From the IMG/VR virus record IMGVR_UViG_3300028794_000185, positions 1 to 40,108 of that record: DNA of 40,108 bases. The stretch is one strand, 5' to 3'. Source of the DNA: a virus. A model generated the notes under the pieces. That model did no database searches. It saw only the letters and a program-made list of their open reading frames with translations, and was not told the DNA's origin. Below are positions 5,025-29,290 of the stretch, piece by piece (the first letter of the stretch is position 1; each line of letters starts with the position of its first letter). A program made the translations under genes and the position numbers.

Positions 5025-5726
5025 CTATGAGGCCTTACTATCAGGTACAAGTAGCATAATCTGTTCAGCTACCGCTTTTCCAAGTATAGATGCACCACGA
5101 TCAGTTAAATGCACCCCACTAAGGTTATCATTGTCTTTTCTATTGAAGTAATTTTCGTTGTTTGGGGCAGTACTTGAATATATTTCGCTTGCCGTATTAA
5201 CATCAACGATTCCACTCGTAAAGCTTCTGAAATTAGCCCTTAGCCTTTTATTTAATTCTAACCTCCTTTTGTCGAAATCTGGCTGTATCGCGTATTTATC
5301 GACCCTGTTCATTACTGGTACAACTATAGATTTGACGCCCCGGTTTCTTAAAAACTGATGGATTTTAACAATATCGTTATATACCTGATCTGTTGGAAAC
5401 TCCGTGAGATCGTTGGCTCCAAAAAAAACCACCGCTATAGTGTCGCGCTTTGAATCTATAATAAGGTTCTGTATGTATTGGCTATAATATTCAGATGCGG
5501 AAAGGCCTGGATAGCCAAAAACCTCAAAATCTATATTTTTTAGTAAACCCACGGCTTGGTATGGAAATGAAAATTCCTTACTACTTGTACCGACACCTTT
5601 TGTCAAGCTATCTCCTATAAAGTATATCAGCGGGCGACCGAATATGCTACATCGTTTAAAAAAAGCTAATGAACTCAAGGCAATAACTTTTAATAAGAAG
5701 TCCCCCCTGGAAATATTTGAAACCAT
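5025..5726 (-). CDS. SGNH/GDSL-family hydrolase (esterase), second tail-end copy
   Basis: From the ATG at 5726 this is a 233-residue protein; a TTG at 5762 would add 12 residues. Block I is FIGDSLTKG (catalytic Ser in GDS), block III is FFGANDL (Gly/Asn oxyanion residues) and block V is GVHLTDRG (catalytic His). Such enzymes deacetylate or de-esterify sugars. A hydrophobic stretch FLLKVIALSSLAFF precedes the catalytic domain, which is unusual for a tail protein and could anchor or export it. The protein is clearly a paralogue of the SGNH domain of the next gene upstream (shared VPVxNRxD, YFN-D-D-LS-VH). It lies last in the tail-fibre gene group, so a virion-associated depolymerase or deacetylase is the likeliest role; a secreted lysogen product is the alternative. 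Confidence 0.8.
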   Translation of the reverse strand: MVSNISRGDFLLKVIALSSLAFFKRCSIFGRPLIYFIGDSLTKGVGTSSKEFSFPYQAVGLLKNIDFEVFGYPGLSASEYYSQYIQNLIIDSKRDTIAVVFFGANDLTEFPTDQVYNDIVKIHQFLRNRGVKSIVVPVMNRVDKYAIQPDFDKRRLELNKRLRANFRSFTSGIVDVNTASEIYSSTAPNNENYFNRKDNDNLSGVHLTDRGASILGKAVAEQIMLLVPDSKAS

Positions 5727-5765
5727 GTGATAGTTTTTTGTAAAAATAATACTTAAACTCAATTA

Positions 5766-7424
5766 TTAAACGTTTCGACCCAAAGCCGTTTGAAAGGCTT
5801 GTACTATGGTATAATGCGCAGCCTCTTCGCTGTCTGTTAAGCCGTAGCCAATGGCGGCGTAAGCGCAATTACGGGCTGATGGATAACTATCGCCAACGCC
5901 TGCTAAATTCTGATTTCCTATTATAGTGCTGGTCTGTTGTTCATTTCCAGTAGTGGATGTTGCGGTACTTATGATTGCGCCATTTTTATACAAAGTCCTA
6001 TGTGTTGTAGTATCGGCCCGGCACACGCTAAACAAGCCGGTTGCTGTATATGAAGCAGATTCCGGCGAGGGGCCATTGTCGTTTAACTCGCAATAAACCT
6101 GCCCGCCCAATCTAATGGCAAACCTGGCTATCGAGCCAGCGTTACCACCTCCAATATCGACACCCTCCGGTACGGGGTTGGCTGTTCGTGAATAATAGTG
6201 CAACGACATTTTACCCTTGCTGAATGCCGAGCGTTCGTTTTGAGTAAATTTAGTGTCGGCCACAGCGCCGCCAACCCAAGTTACCCCGTTGGCATCATGC
6301 GTTGCCGCGCCGTGGTATACCAACCTGTAACAGGCGTCTAAATCCCTGGCATCTTTGAGGTTGAATTTGTGCGCATCTGCATTACCGCCCACAAAAGGGT
6401 ATATAGCCCTCAACTTCCACCAAATACCGGCTGCTTTAAGGTCGGTAACCATTGCATTTATAGCATCTATTTGAGTGCTGTCCGTGATGCCTGTGGCCGC
6501 TATGAAGTCGGCCGCTTCGTCAGGCGGCGAAACAACAAGCGACGATGTTAATGCAAGCGCTGATATTGTTGTAGCTAAACAATTAGCAATTACTAAGGCC
6601 CCAGCGTCTGTTGGATGAACCTTGCTTAATCCATCTGTATCCGGATCATTAAAGTAGGTGGCATTATCCGGCGCATCATCCCCCCACATTTCGGGATGCC
6701 CGCTAATATCAACAACCGCATCTGCTATGGTTGCATAATTGGCAGCAATCCATGTGTTAAAAGCATTTCGGCGCGGATTGAAGTTAATATTTGAAAAGCT
6801 GTCTTTCCTGTTTAAAACAGGAACAATTATAACCTTTGCGCCCGCTGCCTGTAGTGCGTTACAGCTTGCTGTTAGATTTGTGATAAAATCAGTGTCAGTC
6901 ATATCCAACATGTCATTCGCGCCAAAAAACAATACGCTATAAATATCTGTGTAGTTGATGTAATCAAACAGCTTTATCCCATCGTTTAAGGCGTTGGTAT
7001 TAAACCATGCGGATGTTTGACCGGGAAACGGCATTACACCCATAGTAATCGACAATCCGCTTGTTGTAAGGGCATCTACTGTTTTAGTAGGATAGTCATT
7101 GCCTTTATTAAAGTCGCCCGTTTCGCTTGTGCCAGTGCCTGTTGTACCAATACCACCAGTGATACTATCGCCAAAGAAAACCAACTGAATGTTTTTTTCC
7201 GGGGCCACTGCATTAAAGGCAACAGTATTCGTAAGTTCAGCACTCACCGGGTTTATCCCCAACGCCTTTACACGGACTTTTAAACCGCCGATGGGTATGT
7301 CAACATCTAAGCCCACGTTAATGGTATACGAGCCGTCTAAATTATCTGTGGTGTTTAGTGCCGTGCAGCCAATCCATGCACCTCCGTTCACCTGGTATTC
7401 GTGGTCTGTTAGTGGTCGTTTCAT
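5766..7424 (-). CDS. Tail spike-like protein: SGNH hydrolase plus C-terminal lectin-like domain
   Basis: A 552-residue, apparently three-part protein. Residues about 1-75 form a beta-rich, fibronectin-like segment (EYQVNGGAWIGC, YTINVGLD). Residues about 78-290 are an SGNH hydrolase with FFGDSITGGIG (nucleophile Ser), FFGANDMLD and KVHPTDAGA (His). Residues about 310-552 resemble a concanavalin/LamG-like binding domain seen at the ends of phage tail proteins (LYKNGAIIST, FAIRLGGQVY). It starts at an ATG overlapping the stop codon of the upstream fibre gene (TAATG), indicating translational coupling. The role inferred is receptor binding with esterase trimming of the host surface polysaccharide. 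The downstream gene carries a diverged copy of the hydrolase domain. Confidence 0.8.
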   Translation of the reverse strand: MKRPLTDHEYQVNGGAWIGCTALNTTDNLDGSYTINVGLDVDIPIGGLKVRVKALGINPVSAELTNTVAFNAVAPEKNIQLVFFGDSITGGIGTTGTGTSETGDFNKGNDYPTKTVDALTTSGLSITMGVMPFPGQTSAWFNTNALNDGIKLFDYINYTDIYSVLFFGANDMLDMTDTDFITNLTASCNALQAAGAKVIIVPVLNRKDSFSNINFNPRRNAFNTWIAANYATIADAVVDISGHPEMWGDDAPDNATYFNDPDTDGLSKVHPTDAGALVIANCLATTISALALTSSLVVSPPDEAADFIAATGITDSTQIDAINAMVTDLKAAGIWWKLRAIYPFVGGNADAHKFNLKDARDLDACYRLVYHGAATHDANGVTWVGGAVADTKFTQNERSAFSKGKMSLHYYSRTANPVPEGVDIGGGNAGSIARFAIRLGGQVYCELNDNGPSPESASYTATGLFSVCRADTTTHRTLYKNGAIISTATSTTGNEQQTSTIIGNQNLAGVGDSYPSARNCAYAAIGYGLTDSEEAAHYTIVQAFQTALGRNV

Positions 7425-15535: not shown

Positions 15536-16098
15536 TTAACTCTTTGCCTTAAAAATTATGTTTAGCAATTCAATTGCTTTTTGCTGGATCGCGTTACTCA
15601 GGTTCTCGTTTTCGGTTCGCTGTATAAAGCGGTACTCCTCATAAAGCTTTGCCCACTCATCGTCTGATAGCTTTGTTGGGTCAACCTGGTAACGGAGCCT
15701 AAGTATTGCGTTAATTTTATTGATCCATTGCGGGTCTTCTCCCTCATCCGGCGACTCATGCAGGCGGTAGCGGGCTAAAGCTTTTTTATAGCAGAGGTAG
15801 CGCCTTTCATGAAAACGCCCAATTGCTTCATTACCTCACCAAAAACATCACAGTCATTCTCAAAGGCTTCGTCATCGCCTGCCAGTACGCAATTCGCGAT
15901 AAGTATTTTATTGGTTTCTGTAACATTGTCCTTAGTGCGGGTAACCGCCTCAATTACGTTCCTGTTCGGCTTACGAAGCAAAAACTGGTAAACGTCACCA
16001 TCGCCCGATTTAACTTCAATAAGGCGTATCCTCTTTTCGCTATACTTAGCCTTGCTATCCTGTATAAGCTCCGGGGTAACCGGTACTAATGCTGCCAT
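15536..16098 (-). CDS. Tail assembly chaperone, short form plus -1 frameshift long form
   Basis: The zero-frame product (15775-16098) has 107 residues: [10 protein letters not shown]..., an all-helical second half and the end AIKKL. Just before its stop TAG the sequence A AAA AAG (15781-15787) allows -1 slippage, after which the reading frame stays open for 81 more residues ([10 protein letters not shown]... to KAKS, stop at 15536-15538), giving a 187-residue long form. The extension ends 2 bases before the tape measure ATG and has no start codon of its own near its beginning. Such a pair of products just upstream of the tape measure gene, in a fixed ratio, is the rule in tailed phages; they wrap the tape measure during tail assembly. 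Joining by frameshift is inferred from the signal and frame. Confidence 0.82.
15781..15787 (-). promoter_or_regulatory. -1 programmed frameshift heptamer (A AAA AAG)
   Basis: On the minus strand the chaperone gene reads ATA AAA AAG CTT TAG; slipping back one base on A AAA AAG continues as GCT TTA GCC and stays open for 81 codons. No strong downstream stem was found by eye, so efficiency may depend on the heptamer itself. Confidence 0.75.
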
Positions 16099-24040: not shown

Positions 24041-25303
24041 ATGAGTTTACTTGACAGGGTTTATGATTCGGTAGAAAACTGGGTTTTAGAACGCGTACCC
24101 AATAACAAATTTATAGTTGAGGCCGAGGCGCGCCGGGGCGGCGGTGATCCGCTGAGCCAACAAATGGTAACATCTGCAAAAGTGATGGCCGAAAAATCGC
24201 TGTTAGACTGGAAACGAGGTATAGCATCGGCTACCGACCCCGATAACCCGGATTGGAGCATACTGGCAGGCCTGCACGAAAATTTATTAATAGATGATCA
24301 CTTAGAAAGCGTGATTGAAAGCCGGATAGCTTACACCAAACGTAGTGCAATCAAGTTTGTAAATACCAAAAAGGTTGAGAACCCCGAAATTACTGAACTA
24401 TTCGAGCGCCCATGGTATGAGGAACTCGTTGAGATCGTAGTAGGCCACCGGTTTAAGGGCCGCAGGATGATCGAACTTTATGAGTTAAACGACGATAACG
24501 AATTAGAAACCGTTACCGAAATTTTTCAGCCTTACTTCAATACCAAAAAGCGCATCATCTTAAAAAATCCCGGCGATACTACAGGTTGGAGTTACGCCAA
24601 AGGGAGCGTTTTTGAGGATAATTATGTACAGGTTGGTAAGGATAACGATTTGGGGATGCTTACCAAAATGGCCCCGATTGTACTTGCCAAAAAACTGGGC
24701 ATGGGCAGTTGGTTAGATTATATTGATAAGTACGGGATCCCGCCGCTTTTTATTACTACCGACCGCGAAGACAAAGAGCGCCTTAACCAGTTGTGGGCAG
24801 CGGCAAGCAAGTTTAAAAGCAACAACTTCATGGTAGGCCGTGGGCAGGAAAAGTTTGAGGTAGGCAACATTGGCGGCGCTGGTATTGCCCCGTTTGAAGC
24901 GCTGCTAAACAGGGCCGATAGCATGTTGAGTAAACGGGTACTGGGTGGCACAAGCATGACAGATGAAAAGTCTTTTGTGGGATCGGCCGAAATACAATTC
25001 AAAATGGCCATTGATCGTTTCGAAAGTGACCGGCTCTTTTTTAAATATTTCTTCAATACCAAGATAAGGCCGAGGCTAATCAAGTTAAGCCCGGTATATG
25101 CGCCGCTGAAAGATTACAAGCTTGAATATGACGATACCGAAAGGCTAACGATCATGCAGCGTATTGATATCATCCTGAAACTTGCTGCCCTTTTCCAAAT
25201 AGACCCGGCACAAATTACCGAGTTAACAGGTATTAATATACTTGGATTGGTACAGCAAGCCAATAATCCAGCGCCTGCGGGGGAAGCGCCTGCAAAAAAG
25301 TAA
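24041..25303 (+). CDS. Portal protein (Mu gp29-like, DUF935)
   Basis: A 420-residue protein matching the Mu gp29/DUF935 portal type: an early LLDWKRGIASATDPDNPDW region, HLESVIESRIAYTKRSAI (about residues 85-105), a central FEDNYVQVGKDNDLG region, and helices with FFKYFFNTKIRPRLIKL towards the end. It forms the dodecameric ring through which DNA passes. The gene ends GCA AAA AAG TAA, where A AAA AAG (25294-25300) is a classical slippery heptamer; a -1 slip would read past the stop and fuse the portal to the following MuF protein (see that entry). The last 12 residues (Ala/Pro-rich) look like a linker. Confidence 0.85.
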   Translation: MSLLDRVYDSVENWVLERVPNNKFIVEAEARRGGGDPLSQQMVTSAKVMAEKSLLDWKRGIASATDPDNPDWSILAGLHENLLIDDHLESVIESRIAYTKRSAIKFVNTKKVENPEITELFERPWYEELVEIVVGHRFKGRRMIELYELNDDNELETVTEIFQPYFNTKKRIILKNPGDTTGWSYAKGSVFEDNYVQVGKDNDLGMLTKMAPIVLAKKLGMGSWLDYIDKYGIPPLFITTDREDKERLNQLWAAASKFKSNNFMVGRGQEKFEVGNIGGAGIAPFEALLNRADSMLSKRVLGGTSMTDEKSFVGSAEIQFKMAIDRFESDRLFFKYFFNTKIRPRLIKLSPVYAPLKDYKLEYDDTERLTIMQRIDIILKLAALFQIDPAQITELTGINILGLVQQANNPAPAGEAPAKK

Positions 25304-25334
25304 TCAGCGCCTACCTGTTTAAACGGGTTGAGGC
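25294..25334 (+). promoter_or_regulatory. Putative -1 frameshift signal at the portal stop codon
   Basis: Heptamer A AAA AAG (25294-25300) directly before the stop TAA (25301-25303); 8-base spacer (25301-25308); then a stem GCCT+ACCTG pairing with CGGGT+AGGC (25309-25317 with 25324-25334, one 2-base bulge, loop of 6). A purine-rich GGGGGAAG lies 7 bases upstream (25279-25286). Heptamer, spacer and stem all fall within known -1 frameshift ranges. The stem is followed by TTTTTA, so a partial terminator is an alternative reading. Confidence 0.6.
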
Positions 25335-26661
25335 TTTTTATACTGATGATTGTTGCCACCATGAACCGGCCATTACTGCAATTGATTTGAGCGGCTGGGC
25401 GGCTACCATTGAGCAGATTGCAAAAGAAATGCACGATGGTAACCTTAAGCCGGGCCAGTTGGATGAAAAGCTTGTTACCAAAACCTATAACGACCTGAAC
25501 GAAGCTGCGGCCAGTGGCTATGGTAAAGGATGGACAAAGTTTGGTTCCGATGCTGTAAATGATAAGCAGGTTTTACTCCTTCAGCAGAATATTTTCCGCT
25601 TTTCGGGTGCAAAAACCTACACCCAACTAATGGAACTTAACAGCCTTTTGGTTAAAGATGGTAAGCAACAGTCGTGGCCGGATTTTAAAGCGGATGCGCT
25701 AAAGGTAAACGAGAAGTATAATGTTGATCATTTACAGGCCGAGCATCAAACGGCCACGCGGGCCACTCAAAGCGTTAAGGAGTTTAACCAGTTTAAGGCC
25801 GATGTAAAGATTTTCCCTAACGTAATATTCCGTACTGCCGGTGATAAGCGGGTAAGGGAGTCACATCGAAAGCTTGAAGGTACAATAGTGCCGGTTAACA
25901 GTGCTTTTTTAGACAGGTACATGACGCCGCTTGGTTACCGGTGCCGGTGCCGATGGGTACAAACTGCCCAAAAGGCTACAAGGGATATACCCGATACAGT
26001 TGAGGGTGTAAGCGATGAGTTTAAGTTTAACCCGGCTAAAACTAACCAGGTGTTTAACGAGGGTACGGCAAATGGCGCGAAGCCTATGCCGCAATTTATA
26101 GTGGCTAAGGAGGGCGGCAAGCAGCTTGAGGCACAAATAGAGGCGGCTAAGCTATACGCGCCTTATACGCCCGCCTATAAAGCTGATAACGGTAGTAAGG
26201 TAGAGGTGAGTCCGTTTGCAGATTTGCAGGATTTTGAACCAAACTTAAAAACGGCAAAAGTAATTGCCGATGCTTTAGGCATAGACGTTAAAATACGGCC
26301 ACATTTAAACCGAACGCTTGTGCCTGGCAAGAACCCGGAATATGAAATTAAAGGCCGCTTAGCCGACCGCAAGGGCATTAAAAGTGTAAAGGGCGTGGCA
26401 GATGCAATTGATAACTCAAAATCCCAAATGATGGATAAGGATACAAACCCCGATCAAAAACCTTACATCATCGTTTTTGATTTGAGCGATATCCAGAACC
26501 TTAACCTGGTAGAACTTAAAACCATGTTAAATCGCAAAATAACCGATACAAGGGGCAAGAACATACACGGCCTTATAATGGTAAATGGCAAAAACTCGGT
26601 TGAATTATTAAGGGATGAGATTGTAAAGAGGGATTACGCGAAGCTTGATAAAATACAATAA
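25300..26661 (+). CDS. MuF-type minor head protein with CdiA-like C-terminal domain, probably expressed as portal fusion
   Basis: This frame is open from 25267 to the stop at 26659-26661. It has no ATG, GTG or TTG before a TTG at 25387 (424 residues from there), yet the upstream 29 codons look coding (a Cys/His cluster, DDCCHHEP). A -1 slip at 25294-25300 joins it to the portal (873 residues in total). The MuF (SPP1 gp7) core is visible as FRTAGDKRVRESHRKLEG and MTPLGYRCRCRW. The last 150 residues (PEYEIKGRLADRK, YIIVFDLSD, IHGLIMVNGK) resemble the CdiA-type C-terminal nuclease toxin domain, as in MuF polymorphic toxins. MuF proteins sit in the head and some are injected with DNA. Whether this one is made only as a fusion, and whether it is toxic, is inference; no immunity gene is recognised next to it. 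Confidence 0.7.
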   Translation, partial: VISAYLFKRVEAFYTDDCCHHEPAITAIDLSGWAATIEQIAKEMHDGNLKPGQLDEKLVTKTYNDLNEAAASGYGKGWTKFGSDAVNDKQVLLLQQNIFRFSGAKTYTQLMELNSLLVKDGKQQSWPDFKADALKVNEKYNVDHLQAEHQTATRATQSVKEFNQFKADVKIFPNVIFRTAGDKRVRESHRKLEGTIVPVNSAFLDRYMTPLGYRCRCRWVQTAQKATRDIPDTVEGVSDEFKFNPAKTNQVFNEGTANGAKPMPQFIVAKEGGKQLEAQIEAAKLYAPYTPAYKADNGSKVEVSPFADLQDFEPNLKTAKVIADALGIDVKIRPHLNRTLVPGKNPEYEIKGRLADRKGIKSVKGVADAIDNSKSQMMDKDTNPDQKPYIIVFDLSDIQNLNLVELKTMLNRKITDTRGKNIHGLIMVNGKNSVELLRDEIVKRDYAKLDKIQ

Positions 26662-28168: not shown

Positions 28169-29260
28169 CTAATTCGCCTTAATAAGTTTTCTGCCCAATT
28201 GTTGCATAGGCCATTCAATCGTGTAATACAACACTGAAGATAATATTACGCTTATTCCTAAAACCATCAAATAGTTTAGCAGGTAATTAGCTATTACCAG
28301 TGGCTCACGGGTACCGGAAATTAAATTAAAGGCTGACAGTTTATGTAAAATGTAGATTGCCGCCGCATGTGTTAAGTAAATTGTATAGCTAATTTTTCCG
28401 ATGTAATATATAGCACGGTTAAAAAAAAGCTTTGGATGATATTTTTCAAACGCCAGAACTAACAACAAAAAAGCTAATCCAAAATAAAATATTTGTGAGA
28501 ATATAAGGTTTTGTTGAATGCAAAAACTAAAAACAGCTATGACAAATCCGAAAAATAAATGCTTAGGCGATAATGTAAGCCTGTCTTTATCCCGAATAAT
28601 AAAGTACAACAATATGCCTAACGCAAATACTGGCAACTGATTTGGAAAGTATAAGAATAGATACTCCTGCCACAAGTCACCGGCCGAAATCAGGGAGTGC
28701 GATTGCAATACGTATAAAAGCGCTGCCTTAAAAACAAGTGTAATTATCGTGAATGTAAAAGCGTCCCCTATGCTTTTTATTTTGGCAAAGAGGAACGGCA
28801 AAAGAAAATAAAACATTACTTCCACGGCAATAGACCAACCACCCGGAACTATGCTTGTAATCCAATATGGATTAAATCCATGCAAAAAGGAAAAGTTTGA
28901 TACGATATTAGCTGCTGAAATAAACTTTGCATCGCCCAGCCAGTGCCTCGGGCCAAATCCATCCTGCCACAAATAATAAACTATAGCCAGGTAGTACAAA
29001 GGCGCTATCCGGAAAAAACGCCGTATGAAATAATTTTTTATTGGTGTTCTTTCGTAAGCGCTCCTATAAGAAAATGAAAGCATTAAAGTAAATGCGCTTA
29101 ACATATAAAACAACTGAACCCCTCTCGATCCGTTATCTATAATGGCCACGATATATGGATGGATGTGGTCGATGTTATTCGACTGCTGACGTACGTGAAC
29201 CATTAAAACGGCTAAAATTGCTAATGCTCTTAATACATCTATATACCGCTGTTTTTCCAT
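28169..29260 (-). CDS. Acyltransferase family 3 (OafA/YrhL-like) membrane protein
   Basis: From the ATG at 29260, 363 residues (a TTG at 29278 would add six). It has about ten hydrophobic helices and the marks of family 3 acyltransferases: RYIDVLRALAILAVLMVH (residues 5-22, with His22) near the start and the RRFFRIAPLYYL segment (about 85-96). These enzymes transfer acetyl or other acyl groups to surface polysaccharides from the inner membrane. It is placed between the early and late regions, follows a terminator (29291-29316) and is AT-rich, unlike its neighbours, suggesting acquisition. A lysogenic-conversion (serotype change, exclusion of superinfecting phage) role is likely and fits the insertion beside a polysaccharide locus. 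Confidence 0.8.
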   Translation of the reverse strand: MEKQRYIDVLRALAILAVLMVHVRQQSNNIDHIHPYIVAIIDNGSRGVQLFYMLSAFTLMLSFSYRSAYERTPIKNYFIRRFFRIAPLYYLAIVYYLWQDGFGPRHWLGDAKFISAANIVSNFSFLHGFNPYWITSIVPGGWSIAVEVMFYFLLPFLFAKIKSIGDAFTFTIITLVFKAALLYVLQSHSLISAGDLWQEYLFLYFPNQLPVFALGILLYFIIRDKDRLTLSPKHLFFGFVIAVFSFCIQQNLIFSQIFYFGLAFLLLVLAFEKYHPKLFFNRAIYYIGKISYTIYLTHAAAIYILHKLSAFNLISGTREPLVIANYLLNYLMVLGISVILSSVLYYTIEWPMQQLGRKLIKAN

Positions 29261-29290
29261 CTGTTCAAAAGTGCTCAAAATTCTTCGAAC

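Follow-up and report, generated by a model that had tools for sequence, protein, structure and literature searches.

Recoding at dnaX is achieved in several ways. In E. coli, an A_AAA_AAG heptamer directs -1 ribosomal frameshifting, in Thermus both products are made by RNA polymerase slippage on a run of nine A residues (A9; other run lengths are written likewise), and in Chlorobi two open reading frames (ORFs) are associated with an A10 tract (PMC5009743, PMC3711429). In phages, single-ORF fusions of portal and MuF proteins (PMC7302621), frameshifts in tail-chaperone genes and a frameshift in the head-protein gene of phage A2 (PMC5009743) are already published. The MuF-family protein gp7 of SPP1 reaches the procapsid interior via the portal, in few copies (PMC6316719). 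The present analysis concerns the portal/MuF junction of IMG/VR virus record IMGVR_UViG_3300028794_000185, of which positions 1 to 40,108 were analyzed (the window, 40,108 nt in all) and which appears to derive from a Mu-like phage of Bacteroidota-type bacteria. To judge from sequence comparison, programmed -1 ribosomal frameshifting at this junction very probably yields an 873-residue portal-MuF protein in addition to the portal protein.

The portal ORF ends in GCA AAA AAG TAA, and the MuF gene lies directly 3' of it, as in the MuF/SPP1 gp7 minor capsid family. The features of the two genes are the following:
24041-25303, plus strand: portal gene, 420 amino acids, 0-frame product; Portal_Mu PF06074 on residues 79-398, E 3.8e-45.
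25294-25300, plus strand: A_AAA_AAG, the slippery heptamer, in phase with portal and adjoining the TAA stop.
25301-25308, plus strand: 8-nt spacer, which includes the portal stop TAA at 25301-25303.
25309-25334, plus strand: candidate stimulatory hairpin with stems of 4 bp and 6 bp, a bulge of 2 nt and a loop of 4 nt.
25267-26661, plus strand: open frame of MuF, shifted by -1 from that of portal; a slipped ribosome would translate 25300-26661.
25300-25386, plus strand: start-less N-terminal extension of MuF with a Cys/His motif (CCHH), kept in relatives.
25738-25953, plus strand: MuF domain, PF04233/TIGR01641, SPP1 gp7-like; PF04233 E 1.3e-9, TIGR01641 40.8 bits (cut-off 39.65 bits).
26329-26583, plus strand: C-terminal domain with a weak likeness to CdiA_C (contact-dependent inhibition nuclease type), E 0.07-0.18.

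As an earlier, sequence-only reading of the window had stated, the heptamer is in phase with the portal codons (X_XXY_YYZ in the 0 frame) at 25294-25300, inside the 25267-25303 overlap of the two ORFs, and the spacer that follows is 8 bases long. The MuF frame is free of ATG, GTG and TTG from 25267 to the TTG at 25387, and the calculated -1 product has the announced length (420 + 453 = 873 residues). The stem had been drawn with 9 bp and a 6-base loop, in place of which the bulged fold listed above was obtained. Both frames are otherwise intact in the window.

According to the proposed mechanism, most ribosomes would end at the TAA at 25301 and release the 420-residue portal protein, while the hairpin 8 nt downstream of the heptamer would delay a fraction of them, and a slip on A_AAA_AAG to the -1 frame would give the 873-residue portal-MuF. 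MuF apparently lacks its own start codon, and its only route into the capsid would be fusion to some of the portal subunits as their C-terminal extension; slippage would set the ratio of portal-MuF to portal. We infer the slip itself, its efficiency and the mixed portal rings that it would create. The C-terminus of portal proteins generally lies on the capsid-interior side. By analogy with SPP1 gp7, MuF may face the capsid interior and be delivered with the DNA. A low dose of MuF is the expected need, since SPP1 capsids contain one to two copies of gp7, which binds the portal (PMC5576092).

Alone, the heptamer of the window is weak evidence, because A_AAA_AAG occurs in phase six times in window ORFs of at least 90 amino acids, and the stem on its own is modest (z about -2.3, p about 0.02, for the fold of 42 nt downstream). 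The comparative data, namely in-phase heptamers at the portal ends of relatives and the coding signature of the extension, are decisive. When the window portal was used as a single sequence against viral contigs, no relatives were found; a profile search did recover them, with 80 IMG/VR loci in a first set and later 114 distinct portal-MuF junctions. Among the latter, MuF is in the -1 frame in 73, fused to portal in a single ORF in 30, in the +1 frame in six and in the same frame in five. A_AAA_AAG adjoins the portal stop in two loci from Sphingobacteriales metagenome-assembled genomes (L001 and L002, 61-63% portal identity), and G_GGA_AAG takes its place in L003 (54% portal identity) and is also found in L133; MuF is in the -1 frame in all four. 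In-phase X_XXY_YYZ heptamers within 36 nt of the stop are present at 42 of the 43 distinct -1 junctions of the first set, compared with 83 of the 471 ends of other genes (Fisher P 1e-27; the rows are related, and their shared ancestry makes the P values overstate independence). That the heptamer is a by-product of Lys-rich tails was considered and rejected, as Lys-Lys pairs are slippery in 50 of 70 cases near the portal end vs. 120 of 579 elsewhere. Comparison of homologous junctions had been named by the sequence-only reading as a possible refutation; the relatives still have MuF at -1, in a frame without a start, and a slippery site, and the closest of them have A_AAA_AAG or G_GGA_AAG with a hairpin. 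Missing from that reading is the A10 tract, which stands in for the heptamer in most relatives and which many carry inside a straight fusion.

The start-less extension carries the second line of evidence. Differences at its first, second and third codon positions number 43, 26 and 87 over 12 independent pairs (third-position excess, P 7e-9), or 28, 16 and 60 when only -1 pairs are counted (P 3e-7). The extension therefore evolves as translated sequence, and its Cys/His motif is found in 55 of 67 -1 loci, in keeping with the earlier impression that this Cys/His-rich peptide is coding. These data bear on the possibility that MuF is a separate protein, made by translational coupling or by ribosomes that re-initiate at the TTG at 25387 or, near 25300, at a non-standard codon. 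Such a start has parallels, since a clear MuF ATG overlaps or adjoins the portal stop in L025, L028 and most of L164-L175, and since TTG or GTG codons occur in the extension of L001-L003 as TTG does at 25387 in the window. It is nevertheless improbable here: the TTG sits inside a conserved AIDLSGW block, initiation there would lose the coding-constrained Cys/His segment, and a start codon is absent altogether from most -1 relatives. Of the 43 distinct -1 junctions, 39 are without any in-frame ATG through +75 nt. The heptamers, the A10 tracts and the straight fusions would also be left unexplained.

Two types of slippage signal are found across the relatives, about a hundred of which have one or the other at this position. 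An A9-A11 tract is present at the junction in 83 of the 114 distinct loci, is exactly A10 in 75 and is followed by G in 81; elsewhere, only 20 runs of at least nine A were counted in 806 kb. The tract occurs in all three phases and at -1, fused and +1 junctions, and both non-MuF frames are closed within 30 nt in 93% of the fused and 92% of the -1 loci (null for the fused class, 32%). Tract loci are without a downstream hairpin (mean z -0.38, 83 loci). A tract that is found in every arrangement and without hairpins points to RNA polymerase slippage in these relatives. An origin of A10 in Lys-rich coding was rejected, as Lys-Lys-Lys elsewhere in the same genes has A runs of 5-8, not 10.

Tract-less junctions, including that of the window, mostly carry A_AAA_AAG, A_AAA_AAA, G_GGA_AAG or U_UUU_UUC, and most of them have a hairpin 4-8 nt downstream of the heptamer. 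The mean z of the downstream hairpin is -2.84 in the seven loci that first revealed the pattern, and -2.20 in a small held-out set of eight loci, on which it was tested afterwards and of which two (L091 and L161) also have a MuF ATG and two (L155 and L162) have no hairpin. The difference from the 83 tract loci gives P 0.005 for the held-out loci and P 3e-5 for all. The structural signal, modest in the window by itself, is thus strong for the tract-less group as a whole. Heptamer plus hairpin is, as far as the sequences go, the classic ribosomal -1 signal, and the hairpin favors the ribosome because a downstream hairpin can act on the ribosome and not on a polymerase that has yet to transcribe it. 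Two tract-less loci may be described separately. At about 4150-4220 of L093 (Elizabethkingia phage TCUEAP3), the portal/MuF junction has U_UUU_UUC and, 6 nt further on, a hairpin (z -5.4), and the annotated start of MuF lies 276 nt past the portal stop. At about 4160-4215 of L091 (Hankyphage p00), U_UUU_UUC and a hairpin lie inside the portal/MuF overlap, and MuF also has an ATG.

Programmed transcriptional realignment, by which RNA polymerase slippage would produce mRNAs with one extra A that place portal and MuF in one frame, must also be weighed for the window itself. It draws on the 83 loci with A9-A11 tracts, 75 of them exactly A10, in every phase and arrangement, with the other frames closed and no hairpin, and on the similar use of A9 by Thermus dnaX (PMC5009743, PMC3711429). 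However, the window has only A6, and its nearest relatives A6 or GGGAAAG, short of a homopolymer run of about nine or more; efficient cases are documented at runs of nine (PMC5009743), and the hairpin of the window, being downstream, cannot affect a polymerase at the tract. For the window, this explanation has little probability.

The T-run TTTTT at 25335-25339, directly after the stem, had led the sequence-only reading to offer partial termination as an alternative, in which the hairpin would be a terminator and the heptamer incidental. A terminator scan gave no match, the equivalent hairpins of L001, L002 and L003 are without a T-run, and MuF, having no other start, would be lost on termination; the chance that this is the explanation is negligible.

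Straight single-ORF portal-MuF fusions occur at 30 distinct loci, one of them at 53% portal identity, and PHROG 35074 also joins portal and MuF. A straight fusion in a close relative (L011), together with the fact that homopolymer indels are a common error, might suggest that the portal and MuF of the window truly form one ORF, split by a sequencing error or by gene decay. This is hardly conceivable, given that the 73 distinct -1 junctions have differing slippery sequences and come from independent assemblies and from isolate phages (Peternella_1, TCUEAP3), that A6 is too short for the typical error and that the two frames are otherwise intact. Fused ORFs may themselves carry a slippage signal, as in L013, in which A6G, a hairpin and an early -1 stop are arranged as in E. 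coli dnaX. The close relatives L076 (A9, -1) and L078 (A10, fused) are one A apart in the tract, and this single A decides whether the genome has two ORFs at -1 or a fused one; the difference might instead have arisen by replication slippage (phase variation).

A second heptamer in the window allows a comparison within one phage:
15781-15787, minus strand: A_AAA_AAG in the last codons of the tail-chaperone (gpG-like) gene, after which comes a -1 ORF without a start codon.
This gene ends in ATA AAA AAG CTT TAG, is of the known G/GT type and serves as an internal positive control. The G/GT-type frameshift, at 15537-16098 (minus strand) before the tape measure gene, is overlooked by plain ORF calling. 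In Peternella_1, A_AAA_AAG is found at the tail chaperone but A10 at the portal/MuF junction; the use of both suggests that A10 is a choice made at the junction and does not indicate a failure of ribosomal slippage in the host.

Several observations weigh against -1 ribosomal frameshifting in the window. The TTG at 25387 is in the MuF frame, and initiation might occur there or at a non-standard codon. When upstream sequence is included in a 91-nt fold, the hairpin has z = 0.33 and its significance is gone, and no convincing hairpin is seen at the short-heptamer relatives L155 and L162, nor at L034. A separate MuF with its own ATG is present in L025, L028, L010 and most of L164-L175; since several relatives start MuF in this way, MuF need not be fused, and the fusion is not universal. 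RNA polymerase slippage on the A6 of the window would likewise speak against the ribosome, and is unlikely.

On a quick portal tree with some long branches, the tract/heptamer state changes at least seven times and the frame state at least nine. We consider it likely that Bacteroidota Mu-like phages generally recode portal and MuF at their junction, and that ribosomal slippage (heptamer and hairpin) and RNA polymerase slippage (exact A10) swap there repeatedly across -1, +1 and single-ORF layouts. Each layout would give portal as well as portal-MuF, and MuF, often with a CdiA_C-like domain, would be present on only part of the subunits in the ring.

The description of MuF as toxin-type in the sequence-only reading fits the relatives better than the window. 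CdiA_C, the toxin domain of contact-dependent inhibition, is matched by the MuF C-terminus in 23 of 32 relatives, and the MuF C-terminal profile matches PDB 4g6v (E 5e-6), but the match of the window is weak (E 0.07). No immunity gene was recognized beside the MuF gene of the window, the next gene being neck-like. A toxin role of its C-terminus is no more than a lead.

If portal and MuF are joined by programmed slippage, the few MuF copies on the portal would be explained by a genetically fixed stoichiometry of fusion and not by binding, and the asymmetry of the portal ring and the dose of MuF or toxin would become testable in the cultivable phages Peternella_1 and TCUEAP3. The junction would also offer a clean case of a swap between ribosomal and polymerase slippage at one gene junction, comparable to dnaX. 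Current annotations truncate MuF; that of Peternella_1 starts about 100 nt past the portal stop, and the fusion is overlooked. Elsewhere in the window, a membrane acyltransferase-like gene, recognized by eye, lies beside the head genes (28169-29278, minus strand) and is possibly a lysogenic-conversion gene (surface modification), and two adjacent tail-region genes (5025-7424, minus strand) have SGNH/GDSL-hydrolase-like motifs, also by eye, perhaps with a surface polysaccharide as target.

The sequence-only reading held that a portal-MuF frameshift fusion is not commonly described, and the open-access full-text literature, outside which most subscription journals lie, gave no report of portal and MuF joined by recoding. 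Among known systems, the tail-chaperone G/GT pairs (lambda; SPP1 17.5/17.5*) are similar in that, late in a structural-module gene, a -1 slip extends a small share of the product by a C-terminal domain; G/GT proteins are assembly chaperones, whereas the extended protein here is the portal, an expected virion component. Microbacterium phages EA3/EA5/EA8 and EB also have portal and MuF in one polypeptide, but from one ORF, such that all portal subunits are fused, and no recoding is reported (PMC7302621). The fused relatives described here carry an A10 tract, or A6G and a hairpin (L013), that would give a portal-only form. In SPP1, a MuF-family minor capsid protein, gp7, likewise binds the portal, gp6, with one to two copies per capsid (PMC5576092, PMC6316719). 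The two SPP1 proteins are, in contrast, encoded by separate genes and attached non-covalently. In Lactobacillus phage A2, the frameshift-extended protein is the major head protein, not the portal, and has no MuF domain. The likeness is that a -1 frameshift extends a virion head protein, as cited in PMC5009743. A further parallel is with dnaX, which shares the heptamer, the hairpin after it and the use of A9-A10 in its place, has stops in the frames that are not coding, and is laid out as one ORF or as two (PMC5009743, PMC3711429); the A tract with closed other frames of the portal-MuF relatives is the layout of Thermus dnaX. Unlike dnaX, the pair recoded here would be a phage portal and a minor capsid protein, with both mechanisms and both layouts in a single phage gene family and several swaps between them on the portal tree.
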